A DNA stretch of 64,000 nt from Pandoraea sputorum. GTDB lineage: Bacteria; Pseudomonadota; Gammaproteobacteria; Burkholderiales; Burkholderiaceae. Location: NCBI RefSeq assembly GCF_000814845.2, contig NZ_CP010431.2:3720001-3784000 (forward strand), given 5' to 3'. How positions within the stretch are numbered: position 1 is the stretch's first letter; the number at the start of each line of letters is the position of its first letter. A program made the position numbers and the translations under genes. A model generated the notes under the pieces. It was given only the letters and a program-made list of their open reading frames with translations. It was not told the origin of the DNA and made no database searches. Shown here in pieces: positions 2,488-18,249 of this stretch.

Positions 2488-3735
2488 TCAGACCGCCCCG
2501 ACCTCGCGTAGCGCCGCGATCTGTTGCGGGCTGTAGCCGAATTCGCCGAGCACGTCGTCCGTGTGTTCGCCCAGCAGCGGCGAACGCTCCACATGCGTGG
2601 GGCTGTCGGAGAGCTTGATCGGGTTGCCGACGGTGAGGTACTTGCCGCGCTTCGGGTGGTCGACTTCGACGATGGTGCCGGTCTCGCGCAGCGACATGTC
2701 TTCGGCGATTTCCTTCATCGACAGAATCGGACCGCACGGAATGTCGTACTCGTTGAGAATGCCCATGACCTCGAACTTGCTCTTCGTCATGGTCCATTGC
2801 TCGACGGTGTCGAAGATCTCGCGCAGACGCGGCAGACGCGCTCGCGGCGTGGCGTAATCGGGATGCTCGACCCACTCGGGCTTGCCGATCACCTTGCAGA
2901 TCGAACCCCACACGGGTGCCTGCGTAATGAAGTAGATGTACGCGTTCGGATCCGTTTCCCAGCCCTGGCACTTGAGAATCCAGCCCGGCTGACCGCCACC
3001 CGAGGCATTGCCCGCGCGCGGCACCGCATCGCCGAACTGACCGTTCGGGAACTGCGGATACTCTTCCATCACGCGCGCGCGCTCAAGGCGCTGCTGGTCG
3101 CGCAGCTTCACGCGGCACAGGTTCAGCACGCCGTCCTGCATGGCGGCCAGCACGCGCTGGCCCTGCCCGGTCATGGTGCGCTGATACAGCGCCGTCACAA
3201 TGCCCAGCGCCAGATGCAGGCCCGTGCCCGAATCGCCGATCTGCGCGCCCGTGACCATGGGCGGGCCGTCGTCGAAACCGGTGGTGGAGGCCGCGCCGCC
3301 CACGCACTGCGCCACGTTCTCATAGACCTTGCAGTCCTGATACGGACCGGGGCCGAAGCCCTTCACAGAGGCCACGATCATGCGCGGGTTCAGCGAATGA
3401 ATGTGCTCCCAGGTGAAACCCATGCGATCGAGTGCACCGGGTGCGAAGTTCTCCACAAGCACGTCGCAGTCGCGAATCATGCGCTCGAGCACCGCCTTGC
3501 CTTCCGGATGCTTCGTATCGAGCGTGATCGAACGCTTATTGCTGTTGAGCATCGTGAAGTAGAGGCTGTCCGCGTCAGGAATGTCGCGCAGCTGATCGCG
3601 CGTCACATCACCGTGCCCCGCGCGTTCGATCTTGATAACGTCCGCGCCGAACCAAGCCAGCAATTGCGTACACGTTGGCCCGGACTGCACATGCGTGAAG
3701 TCGAGAATGCGCACACCTTCGAGTGCCTTTCCCAT
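2488..3735 (-). CDS. frc: Formyl-CoA:oxalate CoA-transferase, copy 1
   Basis: A 415-residue class III CoA-transferase moves CoA from formyl-CoA to oxalate, giving oxalyl-CoA and formate. The N-terminus ([20 protein letters not shown]) is characteristic. Asp168 in GDSGTG corresponds to the catalytic Asp169 of the Oxalobacter formigenes enzyme. The mobile glycine loop reads S-G-G-G-Q at 245-249, where copy 2 reads G-G-G-G-Q. The start has a strong AGGAGGAGAC site. The promoter region about 160-190 bp upstream carries the tandem oxalate-regulon element. The copy with the altered loop may prefer another acyl-CoA or acid, but the overall resemblance to frc is high. Confidence 0.9.
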
Positions 3736-3893: not shown

Positions 3894-3916
3894 ATACGGT
3901 ATTTCATACACGATAT
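3894..3916. promoter_or_regulatory. Tandem operator-like element A upstream of frc copy 1
   Basis: Two 9-mers, ATACGGTAT (3894-3902) and ACACGATAT (3908-3916), are separated by 5 bp. On the minus strand a possible -35 box TTGATA (complement of 3919-3924) sits just upstream, so the element fills the spacer and -10 region of the likely frc promoter. The same N9-5-N9 layout occurs at four other places in the island. It is probably bound by the GntR protein encoded at 12167-12880 (inference). Confidence 0.65.
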
Positions 3917-4177
3917 TTTATCAACGGCTTTTTGTTGCCGATGCGATTTGCTGTGTCGCCGCATTTCCTCATTAAGATCGCGCAAATCCCCATAAATAAA
4001 GGGTCTCCGCATTGCAACATCGCTCGACTTTTCCTCCCGGAATACGGGTTTACAGGCATGTGTCACAGAGATGAATCGAGGCAAGGGACAAGGTGAATGT
4101 GCATCGCGCCCCTTTAAATATATTGAATACAAAATACTTATTAGGTGATGCCCTCGCCTTTTCACTGTCGCTGAAAA

Positions 4178-4213
4178 CAAAAAAGCACCGGTGCGCATCG
4201 CGCATCGGTGCTT
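4178..4213 (-). terminator. Intrinsic terminator after the PAS gene
   Basis: A 14-bp stem with one mismatch (arms 4183-4196 and 4200-4213, loop ATC) is followed on the minus strand by a run of T (complement of 4178-4184). It lies 67 bp beyond the stop of the PAS-protein gene. The remaining DNA up to the frc copy 1 start, apart from element A, shows no gene. Confidence 0.8.
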
Positions 4214-4279
4214 CGTTCGCAGCTTGGGGAGGTCCGGCGCAGACGTTATGCCAACGACGCCCCTGCAATTGTCAGTCCA

Positions 4280-4720
4280 TCAACCTGCCGTGGCGGCGAG
4301 TTTGGCTTCGAGTTCGGTCACGCGCTTGCGCAACTGACGGTCTTCCTGAAAGCGTGCGGTCTCATCGCGTATGACGGCGACGATGCCAGTCACTTCGCCG
4401 CCCTCGCCATGCAGCAGCGCGACGGTGAAGGCAATCGACATGGCGCGGCCGTCCTTGTGCGCGGCGGGCACTTTGAGCAGATCGCTGCCGTACTTGGTCT
4501 GGCCGGTCTCCATCGTCTTGGCATAGCCTTCGTTGTGACGTGCCCGCAGCCGGTCCGGAATGATGATGTCCAACGGCTGACCGACCGCCTCTTCTGCCGA
4601 GAAACCGAACATCTTTTGCGCACCGGAATTCCAGAGCGTGATGATGTTTTGCGGGTCGGCCACGACGATGGCGTCGCCCACCACTTCTACCAACTGCCCG
4701 ACGTCGACAGATGCGCTCAT
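4280..4720 (-). CDS. Stand-alone PAS-domain protein of the oxalate island
   Basis: A 146-residue protein consists of one PAS domain (about residues 5-125; signature ITLWNSGAQKMFGFSAEEAV, then the PAC-like GIVAVIRDETARFQED) and a short C-terminal coiled coil (RQLRKRVTELEAKLAA). No kinase, cyclase, HTH or membrane segment is present. The ATG at 4720 is chosen because GGAGAC lies just upstream; the frame is open 19 codons further. It is encoded between the two frc genes on the same strand. It may sense redox state or a ligand and act by protein contact, for example on a kinase or enzyme elsewhere. Its partner cannot be told from the sequence. Confidence 0.82.
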   Translation of the reverse strand: MSASVDVGQLVEVVGDAIVVADPQNIITLWNSGAQKMFGFSAEEAVGQPLDIIIPDRLRARHNEGYAKTMETGQTKYGSDLLKVPAAHKDGRAMSIAFTVALLHGEGGEVTGIVAVIRDETARFQEDRQLRKRVTELEAKLAATAG

Positions 4721-4810
4721 GATGTCTCCAATAACCTTGTGGGGGAATGCGATTGACATGACTACCAAACATGCCAATAAAGTACATCAATTAGAGGACA
4801 ACACGGTCCC

Positions 4811-4851
4811 GAAAATAAAAATGGGTGCCGACTCCGCAGGGAGCCGCACCC
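4811..4851 (-). terminator. Intrinsic terminator after frc copy 2
   Basis: On the minus strand a 12-bp stem with one bulged base and a CTGC loop (complement of about 4823-4851) is followed by ATTTTTATTTT. It lies about 90 bp beyond the frc copy 2 stop and would end the oxlT-oxc-frc transcript. Confidence 0.75.
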
Positions 4852-4942
4852 ATGAACACCTTGCCTGCTTGCGAGATGCCCGCACCGCCGCCGCCCGAAG
4901 GCGGCGACGGCACATGCGACATCACGATGTTGCGTGACGGCC

Positions 4943-6193
4943 TTAGACCGAGCGCGACGTGTGCAGGTTAGCGATCTGGTCCTTGCTGTAGCCCAGCTCG
5001 GCCAGGATCTCGTCGGTGTGCTCACCCAGCAGCGGCGACCCCGTGATTTCCGGCTTCAGACCCGAGAACTTGATCGGGCTGCCGACCGTCAGGTACGAAC
5101 CACGTTCCTTGTGCGGCACTTCCACGATCGTGCCCGATGCGCGCAGCGACGGATCGTTGGCGATTTCCTTCATCGAGAGCACCGGGGCGCAAGGAATGTC
5201 GAACTTGCGCAGGATGTCGACCGCTTCGTACTTCGTCTTGTCGGCCAGCCAGGCTTCGATGGTCGCGAAGATGTCGAAGATGTGCGGTTGACGGGCTTGT
5301 GCCGTGGCGTAGTTCGGATCGCTGATCCACTCCGGCTTGCCCAGCGCGCGGCAGATCGGCTCCCAGGCGTGACCCTGAATCGTGAAGTAGATGTAAGCGT
5401 TCGGGTCGGTTTCCCAGCCCTTGCACTTGAGCACCCAACCCGGCTGACCGCCACCGCCGGCGTTACCGCCACGCGGCACGACATCGCTGAACTCGCCGTG
5501 CGGGTACTGCGGATACTCTTCGAGGTAGCCGACACGGTCCAGACGTTGCTGGTCGCGCAGCTTCACGCGGCACAGGTTGATGACCGAATCCTGCATCGAG
5601 ACAGCGACCTTCTGGCCACGGCCCGTCTGACCACGGCCGATGATGGCCGTCAGAATACCGATCGCGAGGTGCATGCCGGTGTTGCTGTCGCCCAGCGCTG
5701 CGGCCGACACCGTGGGGGGGCCGTCCCAGAAACCCGTCGTCGACGCTGCGCCGCCTGCGCACTGCGCCACGTTCTCATACACCTTCAGGTCGTCGTAGTG
5801 GTGACCGTCCGAGAAGCCCTTCACCGAGGCCATGATCAGCTTCGGGTTGAGTTCATTCAGACGTTCCCACGAGAAGCCCATGCGGTCGAGGGCGCCCGGG
5901 CCGAAGTTCTCCACCAGCACGTCGGATTCACGCACCAGCTTTTCGAGCACTTCCTTGCCTTCTTGCGTCTTCGTGTCCAGCGTCAACGAGCGCTTGTTGC
6001 TGTTGAGCATCGTGAAGTACAAGGCATCGGCGTCGGGGATGTCGCGCAGTTGGCTACGCGTGACGTCGCCCGAACCCGGGCGCTCCACCTTGATCACGTC
6101 AGCGCCGAACCAGGCCAGCAGCTGGGTACAAGCCGGGCCGGCCTGCACGTGCGTGAAGTCGATGATCTTGATTCCTTCGAGGGGTTTGCTCAT
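4943..6193 (-). CDS. frc: Formyl-CoA:oxalate CoA-transferase, copy 2
   Basis: This 416-residue class III CoA-transferase matches the canonical Oxalobacter-type enzyme closely: catalytic Asp169 in [10 protein letters not shown], the glycine loop G-G-G-G-Q at 246-250, and the N-terminal [21 protein letters not shown]. It transfers CoA between formyl-CoA and oxalate in the cytoplasm, feeding Oxc and recycling its formyl-CoA product. An AAGGAGAC site precedes the start. It lies 27 bp downstream of oxc on the same strand, so the two form an operon. It is clearly homologous to copy 1 along its whole length, and is the better candidate for the housekeeping enzyme of the pathway. Confidence 0.95.
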
Positions 6194-6220
6194 GTCATGT
6201 CTCCTTGATTGACTCGGCTC

Positions 6221-7999
6221 TTACTTTTTCATCGCCGCGCTTTGCGGATTCAGGTTCGTCAGACGACCGCTCTCGGTGCCTGCGGATTCATCGATCACGG
6301 CGTTGATCAGGACCGGCTTGCCCGAAGCAATGGACTCTTCGAGGGCCTTCGTCAGCTCAGCCGGCGTGGTCACGTTGTAACCAATGCCGCCGAACGCTTC
6401 GATCATCTTGTCGTAGCGCGCGCCCTTGACGAACACCGTCGGGGCCACGTCCTTGCCGCCCGTCGGGTTGACGTCGGTGCCGCGATACACACCGTTGTTG
6501 TTGAAGATGATGGTGGTGATGGGCAGCTCGTAACGGCAGATGGTTTCGAGCTCCATGCCGCTGAAGCCAAAGGCGCTATCACCTTCGATGGCCACGACCG
6601 GCAGGCCGCTCGTAACTGCTGCGCCGATGGCGAAGCCCATACCGATACCCATCACGCCCCACGTACCGGAGTCGAAGCGCTTGCGCGGCTGGTACTGGTC
6701 GATGATGCTGCGCGCGTAGTCCAGCGTGTTCGCGCCTTCGTTGACGAGGTTGATGTCCGGATGCTTCTTGAGCACGTCGCGGATCGCGCCGAGTGCGCTG
6801 TGGAAGTTCATCGGCGACGGGTTCTGCGCAAGCGTGGCCGCCATCTTCGTCAGGTTCTTGTTCTTGCGCTCGGCGATAGCGCCGGTCCACTCGGCGGACG
6901 GCTTGCCGAAGTTGGCATCCACACCGGCGAGCAGTGCCTTCACGCACGAACCAATGTCACCGATCACCGGAGCGGCAATCGCGACGTTGCTGTCGATTTC
7001 CGTCGGCGAGATGTCGATCTGCACGAACTTCTTCGGTGCGGCACCCCAGGTCTTGCCCTTGCCGTGTGCGAGCAGCCAGTTCAGGCGTGCGCCGATCAGC
7101 ACGACGACGTCGGCTTCTTGCAGCACGAACGAACGTGCAGCGGCAGCCGATTGCTCGTGCGTGTCGGGCAGCAGGCCCTTGGCCATCGACATCGGCAGGT
7201 ACGGAATGCCCGTCTTTTCGACGAGTGCACGGATGTCTTCGTCGGCCTGAGCGTACGAAGCGCCCTTGCCCAGCAGAATCAGCGGACGCTTGGCGCCCTT
7301 GATCACGTCGAGTGCGCGCTGGACAGCATCCTGCGCCGGGATCTGACGCGGTGCGGCGTCGATCACGCGAATCAGCGAATCCTTAGCCTTCTGTGCGTCG
7401 ATGGTCTGCGACAGCAGCTTGGCCGGCAGATCCAGATAGACGCCGCCGGGGCGACCCGACACGGCTGCGCGGATCGCGCGGGCAAGGCCCACGCCGATGT
7501 CTTCGGCGTGCAGCACGCGGTAAGCCGCTTTGCAATACGGCTTGGCCGCATTGAGCTGATCCATTTCTTCATAGTCGCCCTGTTGCAGGTCGACGATTTC
7601 ACGCTCGCTCGAACCGCTGATGAGAATCATCGGGAAGCAGTTCGTGGTGGCGTTGGCGAGTGCCGTCAGGCCGTTCAGGAAGCCAGGTGCCGACACCGTC
7701 AGGCAGATGCCCGGCTTTTGCGTCATGTAGCCGGCGATCGCAGCGGCGTGGCCAGCGTGCTGTTCGTGACGGAAGCCGATGAAGCGCAGGCCTTCGGCTT
7801 GCGCCAGGCGGGCCAGATCGGTGATGGGAATCCCCACCAGACCGAAGATGGTGTCGATGTCGTTCGCTTTCAGAGCATCGATAACCAGATGGAAGCCATC
7901 GGTCGTTGCTCCCTCGGACACGATGTTCGCGTGTCGGCTGTTGTCTTCGAGCGTCTCGTTTTCCGCCTTGCCGACTGGCACGGTCATCGCAATGGACAT
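6221..7999 (-). CDS. oxc: Oxalyl-CoA decarboxylase
   Basis: This 592-residue ThDP-dependent enzyme decarboxylates oxalyl-CoA to formyl-CoA and CO2. Visible features are the N-terminal pyrimidine-binding domain with the conserved Glu in [16 protein letters not shown], the central FAD/ADP-fold domain, and the C-terminal ThDP motif starting [20 protein letters not shown] and ending NNN. Length and order fit the family. The ATG at 7999 follows GGAGGAGAG; an upstream in-frame TTG lies inside that ribosome site and is rejected. It sits between oxlT (same strand, about 215 bp upstream) and frc copy 2. Confidence 0.95.
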
Positions 8000-8095
8000 A
8001 ATTCTCTCCTCCAATTTTTCCGGTTTCAGTGTTGCGTCGTCTTGTCTGACGATTAGTGGGTATTCCTGTACTGCTTCTCTACTTGCTCACCCGGC

Positions 8096-8130
8096 CGTGC
8101 AACCGAACCCGCGAGGGCCCGGGTTGCACG
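8096..8130. repeat. Inverted repeat between oxlT and oxc
   Basis: CGTGCAACC (8096-8104) pairs with GGTTGCACG (8122-8130), with further G:C pairing inside. No T-run follows on either strand, so this looks like an intercistronic hairpin that could adjust oxlT:oxc expression rather than a full terminator. Confidence 0.5.
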
Positions 8131-8214
8131 CCGGTTAAACATGTTGCTAATCAAGCCAGCCAATCTGCCTCTAATTAGTACTGCTCAACGTCTAGATGAC
8201 GTATCGAACTTGCT

Positions 8215-9546
8215 TTACGTGGTGCTGCGGCTCAGGTCCGCGGCTTTCACGACCGGCTCGCTCGACTCTGCCTTGTAGTCGCTGGCGTAACGCTGTGCCA
8301 GACGGGCACGCATCGGCTTCAAGACAAACAAGGCAAGGAAGGCGGCGAAGGCGTTCATGCCACAGGCGACCATGAAGACAGCCTGCCAGCTACCCGTCAT
8401 CGAGGTGATGACACTGGAGAACGGCACCAGCAAGGCGGCGGTCCCCTTCGCGGTGTACAACATCCCCGCATTGGTCGCGGCATACTTCGAGCCATACGTA
8501 TCGGCGCAGGTTGCCGGGAACAAGCTGTAGATCTCACCCCAGGCGAAGAACACCAGGCCGGTCAGCAGCACGAAGGCCACCGGATGCTGGCCGTACTTTG
8601 CCAGTGCGTAGATCCCCACGGCTTCCATCGCGAAAGCGATGAACATCGTGTTCTCGCGTCCGATCTTGTCCGATATCCAGCCAAACACCGGACGCGTCAC
8701 CCCGTTGAGCACACGGTCGATGGCCAGTGCGAAGGTGAGTGCGGGCAGTGTGAGACCGAGAAGCGAGACAGGCGCCTGATCCAGACCGTAGTCCTTGGCG
8801 ATCGGGCCGAGCTGTGCCGTTGCCATCAGACCGCCGGCGGCCATCAGCACGAACATCAGATACATCAGCCAGAACACCGGGGAGCGCATGACTTCCGTCG
8901 GCTTGGCGTTGTAGCGCATTGCGCCCGGCGCCAGCTTCTTGAGCGCTTCGATCGATGCGGGCGGACTGGCGAGCGCCAGACCCAGCACCAGCACGATGAT
9001 CCCCTGCCCCAGCCCGAAGGTCAGGAAGGTGTTCTCATAGCCGCTGGACTTGATCATGTTAGCGATCGGTACCACGGTCAGCGCCGAGCCGGCGCCGAAA
9101 CCGGCGGCGGTAATACCTGCGGCAAGACCACGACGGTCCGGGAACCACTTCAGTGCGTTACCCACGCAGGTGCCATACACCGCACCGGCGCCGACCCCGC
9201 CCACCGCCGCTGCGAAATACAGCATCGGCAGCGAGGACGCATAGGCATTGAGCACCCATGCGATACCGCACAACAGACCACCACCGACCACTACCGGGCG
9301 CGGGCCGAACTTGTCGACCAGATACCCTTCGATCGGCACCAGCCAGGTTTCCGTCACGACGAAAATCGTGAACGCCACCTGAATGGCCGTACGGCCCCAG
9401 TGATACTTTTCATCGATCGGGTTGACGAACAGCGTCCACCCATATTGCAAGTTGGCGATCATCGCCATGCAAATCACGCCGAACACGAGCTGAACCCACG
9501 GGCTCGCGAACACGGATTGCTTACCGTGTTGATTTGTCGTCTCCAC
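8215..9546 (-). CDS. oxlT: Oxalate:formate antiporter (MFS)
   Basis: A 443-residue, 12-helix major facilitator of the OxlT family exchanges external oxalate for internal formate across the inner membrane. The family's charged pocket residues appear present: an Arg in DRVLNGVTRPVFGW (TM8 region) and the Lys in MLYTAKGTAALLVP (TM11 region), corresponding to OxlT Arg272 and Lys355. The frame opens at an ATG at 9561, but its codons contain the strong site GGAGGAGG, so translation more likely starts at the GTG at 9546. A promoter with a tandem regulon element lies upstream. It leads the oxc-frc genes. Confidence 0.9.
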   Translation of the reverse strand: METTNQHGKQSVFASPWVQLVFGVICMAMIANLQYGWTLFVNPIDEKYHWGRTAIQVAFTIFVVTETWLVPIEGYLVDKFGPRPVVVGGGLLCGIAWVLNAYASSLPMLYFAAAVGGVGAGAVYGTCVGNALKWFPDRRGLAAGITAAGFGAGSALTVVPIANMIKSSGYENTFLTFGLGQGIIVLVLGLALASPPASIEALKKLAPGAMRYNAKPTEVMRSPVFWLMYLMFVLMAAGGLMATAQLGPIAKDYGLDQAPVSLLGLTLPALTFALAIDRVLNGVTRPVFGWISDKIGRENTMFIAFAMEAVGIYALAKYGQHPVAFVLLTGLVFFAWGEIYSLFPATCADTYGSKYAATNAGMLYTAKGTAALLVPFSSVITSMTGSWQAVFMVACGMNAFAAFLALFVLKPMRARLAQRYASDYKAESSEPVVKAADLSRSTT

Positions 9547-9700
9547 TTGTACCTCCTCCATCGGTTTTCAGTTGTTTGGCAGCTTCACAACAACAACACC
9601 TTCCGGATGGGGTCTGTGCCCCCTGGGTATGCTTTACGAGGTCTATGCCTCGTCGACTTGTCTCTGATGCTCACGGGAGTCCATTGCGTTTCCCGTAAAT

Positions 9701-9723
9701 ATACCGAACGAAATATACGATAT
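9701..9723. promoter_or_regulatory. Tandem operator-like element B at the oxlT promoter
   Basis: The 9-mers ATACCGAAC (9701-9709) and ATACGATAT (9715-9723) are separated by 5 bp, as in the other four elements. The second overlaps the -10 box and spacer of the oxlT promoter, a position that suits a repressor. Confidence 0.65.
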
Positions 9724-9739
9724 ATCAGATATAAGTCAA
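9712..9739 (-). promoter_or_regulatory. Sigma70-type promoter of oxlT
   Basis: On the minus strand TTGACT (complement of 9734-9739) and TATATT (complement of 9712-9717) are spaced 16 bp apart. It lies about 165 bp upstream of the oxlT start and is the best promoter match in this intergenic region. Confidence 0.6.
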
Positions 9740-9768
9740 CACTAATTTATCGCGGTCCTCGTTTTCCA

Positions 9769-9826
9769 CCTCGCGTGCCGAAGTCGTTTTCGTCCATTGC
9801 ATCGAAAACAACTACGGCACGCGAGG
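9769..9826. repeat. 58-bp near-perfect inverted repeat upstream of the oxlT promoter
   Basis: The outer arms CCTCGCGTGCCG (9769-9780) and CGGCACGCGAGG (9815-9826) match perfectly. Inside them, 9782-9792 and 9803-9813 pair in 10 of 11 positions around a 10-nt loop, giving a stem of about 24 bp. No T-run follows on either strand. It lies 30 bp upstream of the oxlT -35 box and could be a large operator, a cruciform or an RNA hairpin. Confidence 0.75.
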
Positions 9827-9936
9827 CACTGTCCTAAGTGGCGGCTAGATACAGTAACGCAACTGTAGGACGGAGCGGCGCAACAACGCAATGCGAAAAC
9901 ACTAAGGAGTTAACCTGATCCTGGAACCTTACCCAA

Positions 9937-9979
9937 CAAGGCGCTCAGCCCTTTTATATCGGGCTCCTTGCGATTTTTT
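9937..9979 (+). terminator. Possible plus-strand terminator in the oxlT-panE intergenic region
   Basis: CAAGG..AGCCC pairs with GGGCT..CCTTG, with a 5-nt bulge, and is followed by CGATTTTTT. No gene precedes it on this strand. The rest of 9827-10210 shows no convincing coding frame. Confidence 0.4.
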
Positions 9980-10216
9980 AAAACGGGCACAAGGCGATAT
10001 TTTTGCTAATTTTCCTCACAATAAGACATTCCCCTCCTCCCACCTCACCCTCTGTAACACACCGTAATAATTCGCTCGCACGCAGTCTCCGGACATTTCA
10101 CAAGTGCAGTTCATGACCGCAAAGCTCACACATGCGGAAGCCCTTTTTTCAGGCCTGTGCGGGGAAACCATGAGGGCAAAAGGGCGAGGAAGGCTTGGCG
10201 CTATTCTTCTTGTGAT

Positions 10217-10239
10217 ATACGATATACAACATTTGGTAT
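10217..10239. promoter_or_regulatory. Tandem operator-like element C upstream of the panE-family gene
   Basis: ATACGATAT (10217-10225) and ATTTGGTAT (10231-10239) are 5 bp apart. A weak promoter TTGGCG (10195-10200), 17 bp, TACGAT (10218-10223) overlaps the first 9-mer. The start codon of the reductase follows at 10312. Confidence 0.6.
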
Positions 10240-10311
10240 TAGAAGAATCAGAAGAATAAAGCGGCCAGTACCAGGCCCGGGTTTCGATTGACCTTTGGAG
10301 GGAGAGACTTC

Positions 10312-11325
10312 ATGAAGATTTGCATCTATGGCGCTGGTGCCATCGGTGGCTATCTCGGCGTGCAACTCGCGCGCGCCGGAGCCGATGTCAGTCTGGTGGC
10401 ACGTGGACCGCACCTCGCGGCCATGCGCGAGCACGGACTCAAGCTGCTCATCGACGGCGAAGAGCGCGTCGCCCACTTGCGTTGCACCGACGATGCGCGC
10501 GAACTCGGGCATCAGGATTACGTGATCATCGCCCTGAAAGCGCACTCGGTACCGTCGGTACTCGACGCGATGCAGCCGCTGATCGGCCCGAACACGGCCG
10601 TCGTCACGGCCGTGAATGGCATTCCCTACTGGTACTTCTATAAGCACGGCGGCGCGCTCGAAGGCACGACGCTGGAGAGCATCGACCCGGGTGGCCGCCA
10701 GTGGCGCGAACTTGGCCCGGAGCGCGCGATCGGCTGCGTGGTTTATCCGGCCACGGAAGTGGTCGCGCCGGGTGTCATTCAACACGTCTACGGCAACAAG
10801 TTCCCGTTGGGCGAAGCCAGCGGCGAGCGGACCGAGCGCGTCGAGAAGCTCTCGCAGATCATGATCGCCGGTGGACTCGACGCCCCGATCCGCGAAAACA
10901 TCCGCGATGAAATCTGGCTCAAGCTCTGGGGCAACCTCTGCTTCAACCCGATTTCAGCGCTCACCCACGGCACGCTCGACATTATCGCCAGCGATCCGGG
11001 TACGCGTGCCATTGCGCGCGCCATGATGCTCGAAGCGAAAGCCATCGGCGACAAGTTCGGTGTGCACTTCCGAGTGGACGTCGAACGTCGCATTAACGGG
11101 GCCGGCGCGGTGGGCGCACACAAGACGTCGATGCTGCAGGATCTGGAGCGCGACCGCGCGATGGAGATCGACCCGCTCGTCTCCGTCGTTCAGGAGATGG
11201 GACGCCTGGCCAACGTGCCGACGCCCACGCTCGATGTCGTGCTCGCACTGATCAAGCAACGTGAATTCATGACGAAGCCGGATGCCGTGGCGGCCGCGCA
11301 GGAACGTCTGGCTAAAGCGGCATAA
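10312..11325 (+). CDS. panE2: PanE/ApbA-family reductase, probable oxalyl-CoA reductase
   Basis: A 337-residue protein has the ketopantoate-reductase plan: an N-terminal Rossmann motif GAGAIGGYLG at about residues 7-16 for NADP(H), and a C-terminal helical domain with NPISALTHGTL. The ATG at 10312 follows GGAGGGAGAG; the frame is open 8 codons further up. In Methylobacterium extorquens a PanE-like protein (PanE2) encoded with oxalate genes reduces oxalyl-CoA to glyoxylate. Here the gene lies divergent from oxlT and carries the same tandem element as the oxalate genes. An assimilatory role is therefore likelier than pantothenate synthesis (inference). Confidence 0.8.
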   Translation: MKICIYGAGAIGGYLGVQLARAGADVSLVARGPHLAAMREHGLKLLIDGEERVAHLRCTDDARELGHQDYVIIALKAHSVPSVLDAMQPLIGPNTAVVTAVNGIPYWYFYKHGGALEGTTLESIDPGGRQWRELGPERAIGCVVYPATEVVAPGVIQHVYGNKFPLGEASGERTERVEKLSQIMIAGGLDAPIRENIRDEIWLKLWGNLCFNPISALTHGTLDIIASDPGTRAIARAMMLEAKAIGDKFGVHFRVDVERRINGAGAVGAHKTSMLQDLERDRAMEIDPLVSVVQEMGRLANVPTPTLDVVLALIKQREFMTKPDAVAAAQERLAKAA

Positions 11326-11354
11326 ACCAGCGGCATAACCCAGCGGCATAACGC
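11316..11354. repeat. 13-bp tandem repeat, three copies, spanning the panE2 stop codon
   Basis: AGCGGCATAAACC, AGCGGCATAACCC and AGCGGCATAACGC lie head to tail. The first copy contains the last sense codons and the stop of the upstream gene, so the array probably arose by local duplication of the gene end. Confidence 0.8.
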
Positions 11355-11811
11355 GCAATCGTTGTTTGTTTGAAACACCCGATCGCAGGGCACTTTGGCG
11401 TGCCCTGCCCGAATCGGCACTGACTATATATAGAGAGGGCGATGCGACGGGTCTGAAAATCTCGTCGTCAGCCCCACCCCGCAAGTGCTCACCCGTGCCG
11501 CCACCGGACCTCCGGTCGCGGCCGATTTTTTGCCGGAAACCTCGGCGCTGTATGGCCGATGCAGGGAATAACGGCTGTGGTTTCGCGGCAACGCAATAAC
11601 GTCCATTTGACCCACCCTAAAGCAACACCCGAATCACTGAAAACTGCGTGCGCCACTGGCGTCCCGAAATCCACACCATTGCAAGCGAGACGGACATCCG
11701 AGGAGGTTCATCGCCATCATCGACCCCACAAGCACTATCGGAAAAAGAGACAAATCCGAGACGTGTGAGAGCAGTGAGACCTAAAGAACGTCCCGAAAAA
11801 CGATAAATTTT
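11355..11811. other. Intergenic stretch with no recognised gene
   Basis: About 450 bp lie between the panE2 repeat array and element D. Short open frames occur on both strands, but none has a convincing ribosome site or protein-like composition. No terminator with a clear T-run was seen. Confidence 0.5.
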
Positions 11812-11814
11812 GAT

Positions 11815-11837
11815 ATTCGGTATGTGGTATATCTTGA
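11815..11837. promoter_or_regulatory. Tandem operator-like element D upstream of the small membrane protein and gntR
   Basis: ATTCGGTAT (11815-11823) and ATATCTTGA (11829-11837) are 5 bp apart. The latter matches ATATCGTGT of element E in 7 of 9 positions. The second half overlaps the -35 box of the promoter next to it, which suggests autoregulation of the gntR gene. Confidence 0.55.
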
Positions 11838-11862
11838 GACTTGTTGCGGCGCGACATACAAT
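11834..11862 (+). promoter_or_regulatory. Sigma70-type promoter for the small membrane protein and gntR
   Basis: TTGAGA (11834-11839), a 17-bp spacer and TACAAT (11857-11862) form a good promoter about 57 bp upstream of the 72-aa gene. Confidence 0.65.
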
Positions 11863-11918
11863 GCAAAGCAAGTTCTCCCCCACATTACGACCCGTCAACC
11901 TTTATCTGGAGTCTCACC

Positions 11919-12137
11919 ATGTTAGTCGCTGCCCTTACGCTTCTCGCCCTGGCTTCTGCCCTCGCCGCCGGTGTTGCAATGGTTCATCTGTTCGTCGCCC
12001 TGCCCGCCAAACTGCTCGAAAAGGCTGAAACCAACGGCCGTTTCGCCTACCTGGCAGAAACCACGCAGGCAAACGAATCGGGTAAACTCGTCACGAAGCC
12101 GGCAACCATCGTTGGGCAGCAAGCATTGCGCCTCTGA
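11919..12137 (+). CDS. Small membrane protein (72 aa) encoded before gntR
   Basis: A 72-residue protein has one hydrophobic segment at residues 2-29 (MLVAALTLLALASALAAGVA then MVHLFVALPAK). A polar tail of about 40 residues follows, ending KLVTKPATIVGQQALRL. The ATG at 11919 is preceded by TGGAG; an in-frame start 26 codons upstream lacks one. I do not recognise a family. It lies between regulon element D and gntR on the same strand, 29 bp before gntR, so the two are probably co-transcribed. It could be an accessory to oxalate uptake or a membrane partner of the regulator, but this is unsupported beyond position. Confidence 0.7.
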   Translation: MLVAALTLLALASALAAGVAMVHLFVALPAKLLEKAETNGRFAYLAETTQANESGKLVTKPATIVGQQALRL

Positions 12138-12166
12138 AGGGGCCGTAATACCTAGGAGACTATTGC

Positions 12167-12880
12167 ATGTCCCTGATCACCCCAACTCCGGTGCGCGTGA
12201 CGCCACTCGCACTGGAGCCGATCGACACCACCACGAGTTTTCGTAATCAGGCGTATGCGCTTTTGAAAAAAGCCATCGCCGATGCCGATATTTATAACCA
12301 GAAGGACGAAATTCGCCTGGACGAGCGTCAGCTCATCCAGGTGCTTGGCGTTTCGCGCACACCGATTCGCGAAGCCATGACCTTGCTGGAACAGGAAGGT
12401 TTTCTGCGCACGGTGCCGCGCCGGGGCATCTTCATCATCCGCAAGACCAAGCGTGAAATCGTGGAAATGATTCAGATGTGGGCCGCCCTGGAAGGGATGT
12501 CTGCACGGCTGGCCACGCTGAATGCGAGCGACGAAGAGATCGCCAAGTTGCGTCATTTGTTCGACGAGTTCGTGAATGCACCGCCGACGGATCATATTGA
12601 AGAGTATTCGGACGCGAACATCGACTTCCACCAGGCGCTGATCAATCTTGGCGGATCGCAAGCGATTGCCAACACGATCAAGAACCTGTTCATTCACGTG
12701 CGCGCCATCCGCAAGGTGACGATTGCTCAGAACGACCGGGCAGCCCGCTCGATTGTCGATCACCTGAAGATCATCACCGCGCTCGAAAAGCGCGATACGG
12801 AACTCGCCGAGAAGCTCGCGCGCGACCACACCCTCGGTCTGGCCGCGTTCGTCGAAGAGCACTGCGACTTCCTCGAATGA
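12167..12880 (+). CDS. GntR-family regulator, FCD (FadR-type) subgroup
   Basis: A 237-residue protein has an N-terminal winged helix-turn-helix (about residues 25-95, with LDERQLIQVLGVSRTPIREA) and a C-terminal all-helical FCD ligand domain. The FCD metal/ligand residues are suggested by DANIDFHQAL, IVDHLKIITAL and ARDHTLG. AGGAGAC precedes the start. The gene lies at the centre of the oxalate island, between panE2 and fds. It is the only local transcription factor that could read the five tandem elements, which overlap promoters; that suggests a repressor released by oxalate, oxalyl-CoA or formate (inference). Confidence 0.92.
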   Translation: MSLITPTPVRVTPLALEPIDTTTSFRNQAYALLKKAIADADIYNQKDEIRLDERQLIQVLGVSRTPIREAMTLLEQEGFLRTVPRRGIFIIRKTKREIVEMIQMWAALEGMSARLATLNASDEEIAKLRHLFDEFVNAPPTDHIEEYSDANIDFHQALINLGGSQAIANTIKNLFIHVRAIRKVTIAQNDRAARSIVDHLKIITALEKRDTELAEKLARDHTLGLAAFVEEHCDFLE

Positions 12881-12931
12881 ACGCCTGACCCACGTTTGAC
12901 GTCTCCACGACGCGCTCACCGCGCGTCTGCG

Positions 12932-12968
12932 AAAAAGCCAGTGATATGGAAGTGTCACTGGCTTTTTT
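12932..12968 (+). terminator. Intrinsic terminator after gntR
   Basis: AAAAAGCCAGTGA (12932-12944) pairs perfectly with TCACTGGCTTTTT (12955-12967), loop 10 nt. The arm ends in a T-run, and the A-run on the left makes it potentially bidirectional. Confidence 0.88.
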
Positions 12969-13061
12969 CTACCTCCCCGCCCGCCTGTCACGCCCATCGG
13001 CATTGCCTTTCCGGATTCGGGTAAACGATCCCGCGAAACCGCTTGCCTCGGTATTGCACGT

Positions 13062-13084
13062 ATACCGTATATGATATATCGTGT
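13062..13084. promoter_or_regulatory. Tandem operator-like element E upstream of fdsG
   Basis: ATACCGTAT (13062-13070) and ATATCGTGT (13076-13084) are 5 bp apart. This is the same pair as element A with the order of the halves swapped. A possible promoter TTGCAC (13054-13059), 17 bp, TATCGT (13077-13082) would be covered by it. fdsG starts at 13318, so the leader would be over 200 nt. Confidence 0.62.
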
Positions 13085-13317: not shown

Positions 13318-13785
13318 ATGCGCGAGGCTTATTCCATCGCGACGGTGCAAGCGATTCTGGACCATCATGCAGCTCAGGAAGGCCCCCTTCTGCCGATCCT
13401 CCATGATGTTCAGGAAGCTTTCGGCTACGTTCCCCCGGATGCCGTGTCCGTCATTGCCAACGCCCTCAACCTGTCACGCGCCGAAGTGCATGGCGTGATC
13501 ACGTTCTATCACCATTTCCGCACCACCCCGCCGCCGCGACACGTCATTCAGATCTGTCGCGCTGAGGCATGTCAGAGCATGGGCGCCGATGCGCTCGTGG
13601 CGCACGCAGAACGCGCGCTGGGTTGCGCGATGCACAGCCACAGCGGTGACGTCGCGCTCGAACCGGTCTTCTGTCTGGGCCAGTGCGCTACGTCCCCCGC
13701 GATCACCATCGACGACAAGCTGCACGCGCGCGTCACCCCCGAGAAATTCGACCGTCTGGTCGCCCGCGCCAAGGAAGCCGTATGA
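13318..13785 (+). CDS. fdsG: NAD-dependent formate dehydrogenase, gamma subunit
   Basis: A 155-residue NuoE-like subunit carries one [2Fe-2S] cluster. The expected Cys are C80, C85, C119 and C123 (CRAEAC and CLGQC). It is part of the soluble, molybdenum-containing, NAD-linked formate dehydrogenase that oxidises formate to CO2. The ATG at 13318 follows AGGAGAC; the frame is open 30 codons upstream with no support. Its stop overlaps the fdsB start by four bases (ATGA), which indicates translational coupling. Confidence 0.95.
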   Translation: MREAYSIATVQAILDHHAAQEGPLLPILHDVQEAFGYVPPDAVSVIANALNLSRAEVHGVITFYHHFRTTPPPRHVIQICRAEACQSMGADALVAHAERALGCAMHSHSGDVALEPVFCLGQCATSPAITIDDKLHARVTPEKFDRLVARAKEAV

Positions 13786-15374
13786 GCCAGTCCACCACGT
13801 CCGCCAAGACGGCTGTGCGCCTCTATCTGCCGCGTGACTCTGCCGCACTCGCCCTCGGTGCCGACGAAGTCGCCGACGCCATCGCCACTGAGGCCGCTAA
13901 ACGCGGCATCGAGATCGAGCTGGTCCGCAATGGCACGCGCGGCATGCTCTGGCTCGAACCGTTGCTCGAAGTCGTCACCCCGGCGGGGCGCGTCGCCTAC
14001 GGGCCTGTCGAAGTCGAGGACGTCGCCGCCCTGTTCGATGCGAACGTCACCGCAGGCGGCGATCATCCGCTCGCCCTCGGTCTGACCGAAGAGATTCCCT
14101 ATTTCAAGAAGCAGGAACGTCTGACGTTCGCACGCGTGGGCATCACCGACCCTGTCTCGGTCGACGACTACGTCGCGCACGACGGCTATCGCGGCCTGCG
14201 CAACGCCCTCGCGCTGGACGCCGCGACCATCGTCGCGCAAGTGACCGAATCGGGCCTGCGCGGACGCGGTGGCGCAGCGTTCCCGACCGGCATCAAGTGG
14301 AAGACAGTTCTGAATACGCCCGCCGCGCAGAAGTACATCGTCTGCAACGCCGACGAAGGCGACTCGGGCACGTTCGCCGACCGCATGCTGATGGAAGGCG
14401 ACCCGCTCGTGCTCGTCGAAGGTATGACGATTGCTGGCATCGCCGTGGGCGCCACACGCGGCTACATCTACGTGCGCAGCGAGTATCCGCATTCGATCGA
14501 CGTGCTCAACGAAGCCATCGACAACGCGAACAAAGCGGGCTATCTCGGCGAGAACATTCTCGGCTCGGGTCACGCGTTCCACCTCGAAGTGCGCAAGGCC
14601 GCCGGGGCTTACGTCTGCGGCGAAGAAACGGCGCTGCTCGAAAGCCTCGAAGGTAAGCGTGGCGTGGTGCGTGCGAAACCGCCGCTGCCCGCCATTGAAG
14701 GTCTCTTCGGCTTGCCGACGGTCATCAACAACGTGATCTCGCTCGCTTCCGTGCCGATCATCATGGACCGTGGCGCGGAGTTCTATAAGAACTTCGGCAT
14801 GGGACGCTCGCGCGGCACCCTGCCGATCCAACTCGCGGGCAACATCAAGTACGGCGGCCTCATCGAGAAGGCCTTCGGCGTGACGCTGCGCGAGATTCTG
14901 TACGACTACGGTGGCGGCGCCATCACCGGCCGCCCGCTGCGCGCGGTGCAGGTCGGTGGCCCGCTCGGCTCGTACCTGCCGGAATCGCAGTGGGACACCC
15001 CGCTCGACTACGAAGCGTTCGCCGCGCACTGGGCCGTGCTGGGTCACGGCGGCATCGTGGCGCACGACGACACGGTCGATCTCGCCAAGCTCGCCCGTTA
15101 CGCGATGGAGTTCTGCACCATCGAATCGTGCGGCAAGTGCACGCCGTGCCGCATCGGTTCGACGCGTGGCGTCGAAGTGATGGACAAGATCATCGACGGT
15201 CGCGATCGTCCCAAGCAAATCAAGCTGCTGCGCGACCTGTGCGACACGATGCTCAACGGCTCGCTGTGCGCCATGGGCGGCATGACGCCCTACCCCGTGC
15301 TGTCTGCGCTGAATCATTTCCCAGAAGACTTCGGCGCGGCCGAATCGTCGAACTTGCCGACCAAGGCCGCCTAG
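13782..15374 (+). CDS. fdsB: NAD-dependent formate dehydrogenase, beta subunit
   Basis: A 530-residue protein combines a thioredoxin-like N-terminal part with a NuoF-like diaphorase domain. Visible are the FMN/NADH-binding region (ESGLRGRGGAAFPTG and CNADEGDSGTFADR) and a C-terminal [4Fe-4S] motif ESCGKCTPCRIGS with a distal Cys in NGSLCAMGG. It passes electrons from the FdsA clusters to NAD+. The start is the ATG overlapping the fdsG stop, with fdsA 13 bp downstream. Confidence 0.95.
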   Translation: MSQSTTSAKTAVRLYLPRDSAALALGADEVADAIATEAAKRGIEIELVRNGTRGMLWLEPLLEVVTPAGRVAYGPVEVEDVAALFDANVTAGGDHPLALGLTEEIPYFKKQERLTFARVGITDPVSVDDYVAHDGYRGLRNALALDAATIVAQVTESGLRGRGGAAFPTGIKWKTVLNTPAAQKYIVCNADEGDSGTFADRMLMEGDPLVLVEGMTIAGIAVGATRGYIYVRSEYPHSIDVLNEAIDNANKAGYLGENILGSGHAFHLEVRKAAGAYVCGEETALLESLEGKRGVVRAKPPLPAIEGLFGLPTVINNVISLASVPIIMDRGAEFYKNFGMGRSRGTLPIQLAGNIKYGGLIEKAFGVTLREILYDYGGGAITGRPLRAVQVGGPLGSYLPESQWDTPLDYEAFAAHWAVLGHGGIVAHDDTVDLAKLARYAMEFCTIESCGKCTPCRIGSTRGVEVMDKIIDGRDRPKQIKLLRDLCDTMLNGSLCAMGGMTPYPVLSALNHFPEDFGAAESSNLPTKAA

Positions 15375-15387
15375 GAGACCCCCGATC

Positions 15388-18249
15388 ATGATGGATCCGA
15401 TGTTTGAGAAGGATTACGGCACCCCGCGCCGCGAATCGACGAAGGAAGTCACGCTGGAGATCGACGGCGAACAGGTCACCGTGCCTGCGGGCACGTCGAT
15501 CATGCGCGCGGCGTCCGAGGGCGGCGTGAACGTACCCAAGCTGTGCGCGACCGACTCGCTGGAGCCGTTCGGCTCGTGCCGTCTGTGTCTGGTGGAAATC
15601 GAAGGCCGTCGCGGCTTCCCGGCGTCGTGCACCACGCCGGTCGAACCCGGCATGAAGGTCCGCACGCAGTCGCCGAAGCTGCAAGAGTTGCGCAAGGGCG
15701 TGATGGAGCTGTACATCTCCGATCACCCGCTGGACTGCCTGACGTGCGCCGCCAACGGCGACTGCGAGTTGCAGGACATGGCCGGGGTGACGGGCCTGCG
15801 CGAAGTGCGTTACGGCTTCGACGGCGCGAACCACTTCGACAGCGAGAAGGACGAGTCGAACCCGTATTTCACTTACGACGCCTCGAAGTGCATCGTCTGC
15901 AACCGCTGCGTGCGCGCCTGTGAAGAAACGCAGGGCACGTTTGCGCTGACGATCTCGGGACGCGGCTTCGAAGCACGCGTGTCGGCGGGGCAGGATCAGG
16001 CGTTCATGGATTCGGAATGCGTGTCATGCGGCGCCTGCGTGGCTGCCTGCCCGACCGCAACGCTGCAAGAAAAGTCGGTCATCCATCTCGGTCAGGCCGA
16101 GCACGCCAAGATCACGACCTGCGCCTATTGCGGCGTAGGCTGCTCGTTCAAGGCCGAGATGAAGGGCAACGAAGTCGTGCGCATGGTGCCGCACAAGGAC
16201 GGTCAGGCCAACGAAGGTCACGCCTGCGTAAAGGGTCGCTTCGCCTGGGGCTACGCCACGCACAAGGATCGTATCCTCACGCCGAAGATCCGCAAGAAAA
16301 TCACCGATCCCTGGCAGGAAGTGTCGTGGGACGAGGCGCTCGACTACGCGGCGTCGGAGTTCAAGCGCATTCAGGCCAAGTACGGCCGCGACTCCATCGG
16401 CGGCCTGGTGTCCTCGCGCTGCACGAACGAAGAAGACTATCTCGTGCAGAAGCTGGTGCGCGCCGCGTTCGGCAATAACAACGTCGATACCTGCGCCCGC
16501 GTGTGCCACTCGCCGACCGGCTATGGTCTGAAGGCGACGCTCGGCGAATCGGCCGGTACGCAGACGTTCAAGTCGGTCGAGCATTCGGACGTCATTCTCG
16601 TGATGGGTGCGAACCCGACCGACGGTCACCCGGTGTTCGGCTCGCGTATGAAGAAGCGTCTGCGCGAAGGCGCGAAGCTGATCGTGATCGACCCGCGTCG
16701 TATCGATCTGGTCAAGAGCCCGCACATCAAGGCCGACTATCACTTGCAACTGCGTCCGGGCACGAACGTCGCCATGGTCAACGCACTGGCGCACGTGATC
16801 GTCACCGAAGGCCTGATGGCCGACGAATTCATCGCCGAGCGTTGCGAAGATCGCGCTTTCCAGCAATGGCGCGACTTCATCTCCCGTGCCGAGAATTCGC
16901 CGGAAGCGACCGAAGCCCACACGGGTGTGCCCGCACACCTCGTGCGCGGCGCTGCCCGTATGTACGCGACCGGCGGCAACGCTGCGATCTACTACGGTCT
17001 GGGCGTGACCGAACACGCACAAGGCTCGACGACGGTCATCGGCATCGCTAACCTTTCGATGCTTACCGGCAACATCGGCCGCGAAGGCGTGGGCGTGAAC
17101 CCGCTGCGCGGCCAGAACAACGTGCAGGGCTCCTGCGACATGGGCGCGTTCCCGCACGAACTGCCGGGCTATCGCCACGTGTCGGATTCGAGCGCCCGTG
17201 CATTGTTCGAAGCCGAATGGGGCGTCGAGCTGCAAGCCGAGCCGGGCCTGCGCATTCCGAACATGTTCGACGCGGCGCTCGCGGGCACTTTCATGGGCCT
17301 GTACTGCCAGGGCGAAGACATCGTCCAGTCGGACCCGAACACGCAACACGTCACGCATGCGCTGGAGCAGATGGAGTGCATCGTGGTGCAGGATATCTTC
17401 CTGAACGAAACCGCGAAGTACGCGCACGTGCTGCTGCCGGGCTCGTCGTTCCTGGAGAAGGACGGCACGTTCACCAACGCCGAGCGTCGTATCTCGCGCG
17501 TGCGTCAGGTCATGCCGCCGCGCGCCGGTTACGCCGACTGGGAAGTGACGATCCAGCTGGCGAAGCGTCTGGGCTACGAGATGAACTACTCGCACCCGTC
17601 GGAAATCATGGACGAAATCGCACGTCTCACGCCGACGTTCACCGGCGTGAGCTACGAGAAGCTCGACCGTATGGGCAGCGTGCAGTGGCCGTGTAACGAA
17701 GAAGCGCCGGACGGCACGCCCGTCATGCACATCGACGAGTTCGTCCGCGGTAAGGGCAAGTTCCTCATCACGCAATACGTGCCGACGGACGAAAAGGTCA
17801 CGCGCCGCTTCCCGCTCATCCTCACGACCGGGCGGATTCTGTCGCAGTACAACGTCGGCGCGCAGACGCGTCGCACGGACAACAACAACTGGCACAGCGA
17901 AGATCGTCTGGAGCTTCATCCGCACGATGCCGAAGAGCGTGGCATCAAGGACGGCGACTGGGTGGGCATTCAGAGCCGGGCGGGCGAGACGGTGCTGCGC
18001 GCCATTGTCAGCGACCGCATGCAGCCGGGCGTGGTGTACACGACGTTCCACTTCCCGGAGTCGGGCGCGAACGTGATCACCACCGACAACTCGGACTGGG
18101 CGACGAACTGCCCCGAGTACAAGGTGACGGCGGTGCAGGTCACGCCGGTGGCGCAACCGTCGGAATGGCAGCGTCAGTACTCGGACTTCAACCGTCAGCA
18201 GGAAGCGTTCCTCGGACACGACCAGACGACGGCGGCCAGCGCGAGCTGA
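15388..18249 (+). CDS. fdsA: NAD-dependent formate dehydrogenase, catalytic alpha subunit
   Basis: This 953-residue catalytic subunit binds the molybdenum bis-MGD cofactor. From the N-terminus it has a NuoG-like [2Fe-2S] site (C53, C64, C67, C81), a His/Cys [4Fe-4S] site (H113, C117, C120, C126) and two ferredoxin-type [4Fe-4S] sites (C168/171/174/178 and C211/214/217/221). A further [4Fe-4S] site (C245, C248, C252, C280) precedes the molybdopterin domain. The Mo ligand is expected to be C369 in NNVDTCARVCHSP, so this is a cysteine, not selenocysteine, enzyme. Length and cluster set fit FdsA of Ralstonia and Rhodobacter. Confidence 0.96.
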   Translation: MMDPMFEKDYGTPRRESTKEVTLEIDGEQVTVPAGTSIMRAASEGGVNVPKLCATDSLEPFGSCRLCLVEIEGRRGFPASCTTPVEPGMKVRTQSPKLQELRKGVMELYISDHPLDCLTCAANGDCELQDMAGVTGLREVRYGFDGANHFDSEKDESNPYFTYDASKCIVCNRCVRACEETQGTFALTISGRGFEARVSAGQDQAFMDSECVSCGACVAACPTATLQEKSVIHLGQAEHAKITTCAYCGVGCSFKAEMKGNEVVRMVPHKDGQANEGHACVKGRFAWGYATHKDRILTPKIRKKITDPWQEVSWDEALDYAASEFKRIQAKYGRDSIGGLVSSRCTNEEDYLVQKLVRAAFGNNNVDTCARVCHSPTGYGLKATLGESAGTQTFKSVEHSDVILVMGANPTDGHPVFGSRMKKRLREGAKLIVIDPRRIDLVKSPHIKADYHLQLRPGTNVAMVNALAHVIVTEGLMADEFIAERCEDRAFQQWRDFISRAENSPEATEAHTGVPAHLVRGAARMYATGGNAAIYYGLGVTEHAQGSTTVIGIANLSMLTGNIGREGVGVNPLRGQNNVQGSCDMGAFPHELPGYRHVSDSSARALFEAEWGVELQAEPGLRIPNMFDAALAGTFMGLYCQGEDIVQSDPNTQHVTHALEQMECIVVQDIFLNETAKYAHVLLPGSSFLEKDGTFTNAERRISRVRQVMPPRAGYADWEVTIQLAKRLGYEMNYSHPSEIMDEIARLTPTFTGVSYEKLDRMGSVQWPCNEEAPDGTPVMHIDEFVRGKGKFLITQYVPTDEKVTRRFPLILTTGRILSQYNVGAQTRRTDNNNWHSEDRLELHPHDAEERGIKDGDWVGIQSRAGETVLRAIVSDRMQPGVVYTTFHFPESGANVITTDNSDWATNCPEYKVTAVQVTPVAQPSEWQRQYSDFNRQQEAFLGHDQTTAASAS

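Follow-up and report, generated by a model that had tools for sequence, protein, structure and literature searches.

The biochemistry of oxalotrophy is already known. The present analysis concerns an oxalate and formate gene cluster of the soil bacterium Pandoraea sputorum, its GntR/FCD regulator gene (gntR) and a set of operator-like sites in front of the cluster genes, all located in a 64-kb window (positions 3720001-3784000 of the 5.74-Mb single-contig genome). The closest described systems are NanR (E. coli), Atu1419 (Agrobacterium fabrum), PmiR (Pseudomonas aeruginosa) and FdsR (Cupriavidus necator). For the FadR subfamily the operator consensus is the palindrome NyGTM-N0-1-KACNy, to which NanR is one published exception (PMC4494728), and in NanR three dimers occupy (GGTATA)3, offset from each other by about half a turn (PMC8012715). 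The VanR group of FCD regulators possesses six effector-domain helices instead of seven, and in crystals of Atu1419 citrate was observed next to the zinc (PMC7797058). In the literature that was word-searched (including PMC5987411, PMC9476978, PMC3886118 and PMC2864759, with subscription papers mostly outside its scope), no regulator of frc, oxc or oxlT was found for Burkholderiaceae.

The cluster is arranged in the order frc1 - PAS protein - frc2 - oxc - oxlT - panE2 - small open reading frame (ORF) - gntR - fdsGBA. A preliminary description of this DNA had proposed five operators in front of frc1, oxlT, panE2, gntR and fds. All five stretches are present, they are real and conserved, they are shared with other genera as the 15-bp core GTATGTGATATATCA, and the motif tracks gntR. 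A sixth site, absent from that description, was revealed upstream of frc1. The six sites are probably operators of the GntR/FCD protein encoded at 12167-12880, a predicted metal-binding repressor of the VanR type which would be relieved by a metabolite of the oxalate pathway. The sites are as follows.

3894..3919, minus strand: frc1 proximal operator (pattern, conservation and matrix)
4116..4138, minus strand: frc1 distal operator-like site, the sixth (conservation)
9701..9734, plus strand: operator of oxlT-oxc-frc2, with 9713-9727 as best core (conservation and matrix)
10213..10239, minus strand: panE2 upstream operator, best core 10213-10227 (conservation and matrix)
11812..11837, plus strand: operator 5' of the small ORF and gntR, candidate for autoregulation, reaching the -35 box at 11834
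13059..13084, plus strand: upstream operator of the fds operon, 0 mismatches to ATAYNGTATRTGATATATCR (conservation and matrix)

Each site had been described as two 9-mers related to ATACSGTAT with 5 bp between them. This form was recovered in four of the five sites, with 0+2 mismatches (first plus second 9-mer) at 3894, 2+1 at 9701, 1+2 at 10217 and 0+2 at 13062. At 11815 the mismatches were 1+4, and the second 9-mer there, wrong at four of nine positions, is no genuine second copy by that same consensus. With at most three mismatches in total, the paired pattern occurred at 4 places of the window and at 0 in 100 shuffles. When the whole genome was searched with ATAYSRTAT-N5-ATAYSRTAT, the top four places at up to two mismatches were all within the cluster; at up to three mismatches further places appeared, giving 14 forward matches against 3 for the reversed control. 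The sites were indeed AT-rich in GC-rich DNA, since the 60-bp regions around them had 30-43% G+C and the window 62.6%.

A 23-column matrix was trained by expectation maximisation on upstream regions of Paraburkholderia, Burkholderia, Cupriavidus and one unclassified betaproteobacterium (L025). Of 256 such regions 158 were used, after near-duplicates and those of insufficient length had been set aside, and no Pandoraea sequence was included. Its consensus was r-a-w-ATay-g-GTATGTGATATATCA, namely rawATaygGTATGTGATATATCA, and the information in relatives peaked in the 15-bp core. The matrix was applied to the window and to fetched stretches, while genome-wide searches used patterns. Its top five distinct places in the window were the five promoters of the preliminary description, with scores of 31.2 (gntR), 26.4 (fds), 24.6 (panE2), 17.7 (oxlT) and 14.6 (frc1), and the best of 20 local shuffles reached 10.6. 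With another background the scores were 32.6, 28.0, 26.7, 20.2 and 16.4, followed by the sixth site (14.6, at 4116-4138), and the best of 100 local shuffles was 16.0. Away from these promoters the best place in the window scored -0.3.

Conservation upstream of the oxalate genes of relatives, set beforehand as a test, was found both in Pandoraea and in other genera. The nearest named loci are all from Pandoraea (L001-L019, GntR protein identity 95-100%), and promoter alignments among them (18-19 loci per promoter) showed footprints over the sites. The proximal frc1 site was kept in 18 of 19 aligned relatives (the row of L018 being non-homologous), the oxlT site in 18/18, and the panE2, gntR and fds sites in 19/19 each, with L017 diverged at gntR. 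The distal frc1 site formed a 20-bp island amid variable flanks in 15 of 18 relatives, existed in a different version in L017 and was absent from L016 and L019. Among relatives, sites preceded frc1 in 40 of 56 cases and oxc in all nine. With at most three mismatches, C. necator gave seven matches, all on contig C11, six of them within the oxalate region and the seventh ahead of another oxlT; in P. fungorum 4/5 and in P. mimosarum 3/3 matches were in the oxalate locus, which makes 13 of 15 for the three genomes together. In the genome of P. sputorum the 15-bp core RTATRYSRTATATCR with at most one mismatch recovered all five promoters, and reversed controls gave 0 and 1 matches.

The distribution of the motif was followed in 120 Burkholderiaceae genomes, an even sample of a larger group. 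Of these, 46 had the GntR ortholog (E at most 1e-60) and 44 the strict motif (at most two mismatches); both occurred in 41, the motif only in 3, the gene only in 5 and neither in 71 (Fisher 6.7e-23, kinship uncorrected). The reversed-pattern control matched in a single genome of the 120. The three motif-only genomes were small (1.2-2.0 Mb), and three of the five gene-only genomes were Pandoraea, whose sites deviate more from the strict motif. The presence of the gene and that of the motif varied together within genera g11, g13, g20 and g25. In addition, 80 of 82 gntR genes had a site in the roughly 450 bp before them (19/19 in Pandoraea, 61/63 in the others, which were partly in the training set). 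Conservation, the cross-genus matrix and co-occurrence support the view that the sites belong to a single regulatory set controlling genes of oxalate and formate metabolism. Together with the apparent autoregulation, they make the GntR/FCD protein the most likely candidate for the binder.

The protein encoded at 12167-12880 belongs to the FCD subfamily of the GntR superfamily by its domains, with the N-terminal GntR winged helix PF00392 at 42.2 bits (cut-off 27) and the C-terminal FCD domain PF07729 at 90.3 bits (cut-off 24.3). Neither the NanR family (56.6 bits, cut-off 260) nor PhnR (TIGR03338, 105.5 bits, cut-off 271.5) was reached. In the predicted model, built with eight sequences (mean predicted local distance difference test, pLDDT, 80.9; predicted template modelling score, pTM, 0.74), the effector domain comprised six helices (95-119, 122-136, 140-162, 165-185, 191-207 and 211-232), the number typical of the VanR group. 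The closest solved folds were a Brucella GntR protein, PmiR, Atu1419 (named VanR) and TM0439. Residues N151, H155, H199 and H221, invariant in 8 aligned sequences, corresponded by eye to the Atu1419 zinc ligands N137, H141, H192 and H214 (PMC7797058). They compose the Asp/Asn plus three His signature of metal-binding FCD proteins, a predicted metal site.

In the absence of oxalate the repressor would sit on or beside the promoters; the clearest case is oxlT, where it would lie between -35 and -10. It would repress its own gene, oxlT for oxalate/formate exchange, frc and oxc for activation and decarboxylation, panE2 for a side enzyme and fds for formate oxidation. Repression is favoured because the core of the oxlT site (9713-9727) lies inside the spacer of the promoter TTGACT-16-TATATT (9739-9712, minus strand). 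At gntR the site reaches the -35 box of TTGAGA-17-TACAAT (11834-11862). Of the promoters claimed previously at the five sites, these two passed a promoter scan; the other three did not pass. The conservation of the oxlT and gntR promoters is better evidence than the scan. A small acid from the pathway would release the repressor. The most likely candidate is oxalate, which would be coordinated by the metal at N151/H155/H199/H221, and formate, oxalyl-CoA or formyl-CoA could be alternative effectors.

Sites frequently occurred in pairs. Among neighbouring sites less than 300 bp apart in loci L020-L080, 45 of 47 pairs were convergent, at distances of 70-211 bp and often about 165, 170, 198 or 204 bp, and such pairs were observed in 37 of the 61 loci. 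Of the 19 Pandoraea loci, 15 had two frc1 sites, with a distance of 218-225 bp in 13 loci and of 239 and 298 bp in the other two. These pairs give a hint that each promoter may be controlled by looping, with a tetramer joining two operators, instead of by local occlusion; such a mechanism has been proposed for Atu1419, whose loop spans 190 bp (PMC7797058). Looping is a tentative possibility, less expected than occlusion: pair distances vary, with no clear pattern of helical phasing by eye, 24 of the 61 loci are without such a pair, and the orientations in Pandoraea are mixed (8 same, 6 convergent and 1 divergent) in loci which are related, so that the pairs are not independent.

The inner structure of the operator was examined through spacings and self-similarity. 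Among 9-mer pairs in the window (at most four mismatches), spacings of 7 bp (5 pairs) and 14 bp (4 pairs) were the commonest, and any other spacing occurred at most once. For spacings of 9-30 bp, the Pandoraea loci contained 109 pairs at 14 bp, followed by 21 bp with 75 pairs and 9 bp with 73, and the loci of relatives 145 pairs at 14 bp versus 0-12 at each other spacing. Direct self-similarity of the relatives' matrix was best at a shift of 7 bp, yet negative (mean -0.48 per column; -1.24 at 14 bp), while inverted self-similarity was best at centres 15.5 (TGATATATCA) and 12, in the frame of the preliminary description. Because of this self-similarity and the spacing counts, the operator is read as RTAT half-sites in steps of 7 bp, of which the 14-bp pair would be a part. 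Such an asymmetric composite could be occupied by one dimer in an asymmetric pose or by several stacked dimers, as in NanR.

It had been supposed instead that each operator consists of two separate 9-bp palindromes at a spacing of 14 bp, occupied by one dimer each, with an indifferent 5-bp spacer. Four of the five Pandoraea sites fit that form, and among spacings of 9-30 bp the commonest is 14 bp both in Pandoraea loci and in relatives; it is nevertheless unlikely, for in relatives the spacer, GTGAT, showed some of the highest conservation and the second 9-mer was unconserved in its outer half. The self-similarity also favours other arrangements, since the first palindrome's centre, 5, gave -1.38 per column (the second, 19, was outside the computed range). 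Under the cross-genus matrix the register of the preliminary description was retained at frc1, gntR and fds; the best register was shifted by 7 bp at panE2 and by 14 bp at oxlT, as worked out by hand.

Several results weigh against the proposed GntR repressor and its regulon. The palindrome of the FadR subfamily was not seen by eye in the relatives' motif. The promoter scan as a whole was no better than chance (4 found, 3.6 expected). The proximal frc1 score of 16.4 was close to the best of the 100 local shuffles and the distal score by itself was not above them, so both frc1 sites depend on conservation more than on score. In relatives a site was carried by 16 of 34 upstream regions of panE2, by no more than 3 of 43 for oxlT and by none of 11 for frc2; frc2 mostly follows oxc and may share its promoter. 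Core RTATRYSRTATATCR also matched six other places in the genome. Four of these were weak, at 3494363 (score 0.6), 2166344 (-2.6), 1249379 (8.2) and 301035 (14.2), and are probably due to chance. One of the other two, where the gene for an HPP-CBS membrane protein begins (2291567-2291592, core match at 2291576; L118:4563-4592), scored 19.6 and was kept in 27 of 31 Pandoraea genomes, in 26 of them with at most one mismatch. Another, near 2535077 (L119:4572-4600), scored 18.3 and lay just 5' of an esterase-like ORF, after a LysR-type gene. Both scores are partly above the range of oxlT or frc1. No oxalate link is evident for these two sites, which speaks against a regulon confined to oxalate genes unless they are targets of a different regulator. 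A genome search with the longer motif, as it reads in relatives, gave 7 places, 4 in the cluster and 3 outside it, one at 204226, and missed the sites of oxlT and of a second oxlT. Finally, the ortholog of a LysR-type protein (window 490-1446) was present in exactly the same 46 of 120 genomes as GntR.

The regulon had been called local, which was too narrow, as sites also occur elsewhere in relatives and, in the own genome, conserved ones lie at the HPP-CBS gene and at the second oxlT. The latter lies beside glcC/glcDEF (glycolate oxidation), and its product scored 634 bits for TIGR04259 (cut-off 335). Its upstream site (C1:4776572-4776599; L098:6578-6600), found by the paired pattern and the matrix (score 23.1) and not by the 15-bp core, was kept in 26 of 31 Pandoraea genomes.

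That the LysR-type protein itself binds the sites is improbable: its gene shares the neighbourhood of gntR in many loci, and co-occurrence alone failed to single out GntR, but the sites precede 80 of 82 gntR genes and none of 35 lysR genes, by which the two are separated, and no T-N11-A box was seen in the motif by eye. LysR proteins usually act on the promoter adjoining their own gene, which also counts against it.

The genes considered are listed below; the names fdsB and fdsA follow from position and from the naming in the preliminary description.

490-1446: LysR-type gene (lysR)
2488..3735, minus strand: frc copy 1, formyl-CoA transferase (TIGR03253)
4943..6193, minus strand: frc copy 2, formyl-CoA transferase (TIGR03253)
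6221..8014, minus strand: oxc, oxalyl-CoA decarboxylase (TIGR03254)
8215..9561, minus strand: oxlT, oxalate/formate antiporter (TIGR04259)
10312..11325, plus strand: panE2, ketopantoate-reductase-like enzyme (PF02558/PF08546)
11919..12137, plus strand: small ORF of 72 aa with a hydrophobic N-terminus, directly 5' of gntR (tblastn)
12167..12880, plus strand: GntR/FCD regulator gene, gntR (PF00392 and PF07729)
13318..18249, plus strand: fdsG-fdsB-fdsA, NAD-linked formate dehydrogenase, second genomic copy (fdsG by PRK05988)

The 72-aa ORF had no match in a Pfam and NCBIfam scan at E 0.001; by tblastn it was matched in 19/19 Pandoraea loci and, at E 1e-10, in 0 of 61 other loci. A protein with a single PAS domain is encoded within the oxalate cluster (4280-4720, minus strand) and likewise adjoins frc2 in four Cupriavidus loci (L055, L063, L069 and L070). 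Between gntR and frc1, many Paraburkholderia loci encode a thiamine-diphosphate enzyme whose identity to Oxc is no more than about 26% (e.g. L035:11239-12894); the single one scanned was below all listed family cut-offs, nearest to PRK05858 and 2-hydroxyacyl-CoA lyase.

The fds operon of the window carries the operator in Pandoraea; in L017 about 2.7 kb separate the end of gntR from the fds genes. A second fds operon of the same genome (L097) encodes FdsA-like and FdsB-like proteins of 84% and 63% identity. It is accompanied by a divergent PBP_like/HTH_1 regulator gene, 46% identical to its counterpart at the Cupriavidus fds, and no operator was found in its stretch (best matrix score 1.2). 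There was also no clear operator in the fds stretches, up to about 1.5 kb upstream, of five Cupriavidus, Paraburkholderia and Burkholderia genomes (L081-L085), with best scores of -6.2, -6.2, -7.0, 8.8 (L084) and -13.5. The identification of the GntR protein as FdsR was rejected, for the gene beside fds in Cupriavidus (L081) encodes an HTH_1-like/PBP_like protein; this divergent gene is presumably FdsR, judged from its position. A similar ORF of 408 aa occupies the corresponding place in L083.

In C. necator two of the six oxalate-region matches are next to an oxlT with an identity of 77-79% across the relatives seen. After this oxlT comes a formate dehydrogenase that shares about 35-39% identity with FdsB and FdsA, and the same holds in the genomes of L059 and L040. 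It seems from these present distributions that formate dehydrogenase joined the regulon separately in two lineages, as fds in Pandoraea and as the oxlT-linked enzyme in Cupriavidus. In a Pandoraea proteome, formyl-CoA transferase and formate dehydrogenase were both up on kraft lignin, which fits and proves nothing (PMC5987411). A wider proposal is put forward with considerable doubt: an as yet unnamed oxalate-sensing FCD repressor might act on an asymmetric RTAT array with 7-bp steps (stacked dimers), in pairs about 165-225 bp apart that are convergent in other genera (loop), and might have captured different formate dehydrogenases per genus, namely fds in Pandoraea and the oxlT-linked enzyme (about 35-39% identical) in Cupriavidus.

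The control of oxalate and formate metabolism becomes directly testable now that a regulator, an operator and target genes can be proposed for several genera, and an oxalate sensor would be a possible use. The comparison also suggests how a pathway gains its final step, as two different formate dehydrogenases are apparently placed under one operator in two lineages.

Among the described systems, the formate-responsive FdsR of C. necator likewise controls a formate-inducible promoter in a relative (PMC7057948), but the gene at the FdsR position (L081) does not encode a GntR protein and no operator of the present type is found there. By sequence, PmiR (7xp0, 7xp1) is the nearest chain of known structure (E 1.5e-17); it also ranks with the top folds, at 27% identity in the fold comparison. 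Atu1419 of the VanR group shares the six-helix FCD fold, the metal site of Asn and three His, an operator between -35 and -10 (in its case of its own promoter) and paired operators, in its case 190 bp apart; it differs in having the 10-bp palindrome ATGTATACAT as operator and folate as effector (PMC7797058), and its identity to the Pandoraea protein in the fold comparison is 24-26%. NanR is likewise an FCD-type GntR protein with tandem RTAT-type half-sites and an operator outside the FadR consensus (PMC4494728), but its repeats are direct GGTATA units, (GGTATA)3 (PMC8012715), while the present sites are read as combining a 7-bp step with an added inverted half (TGATATATCA).

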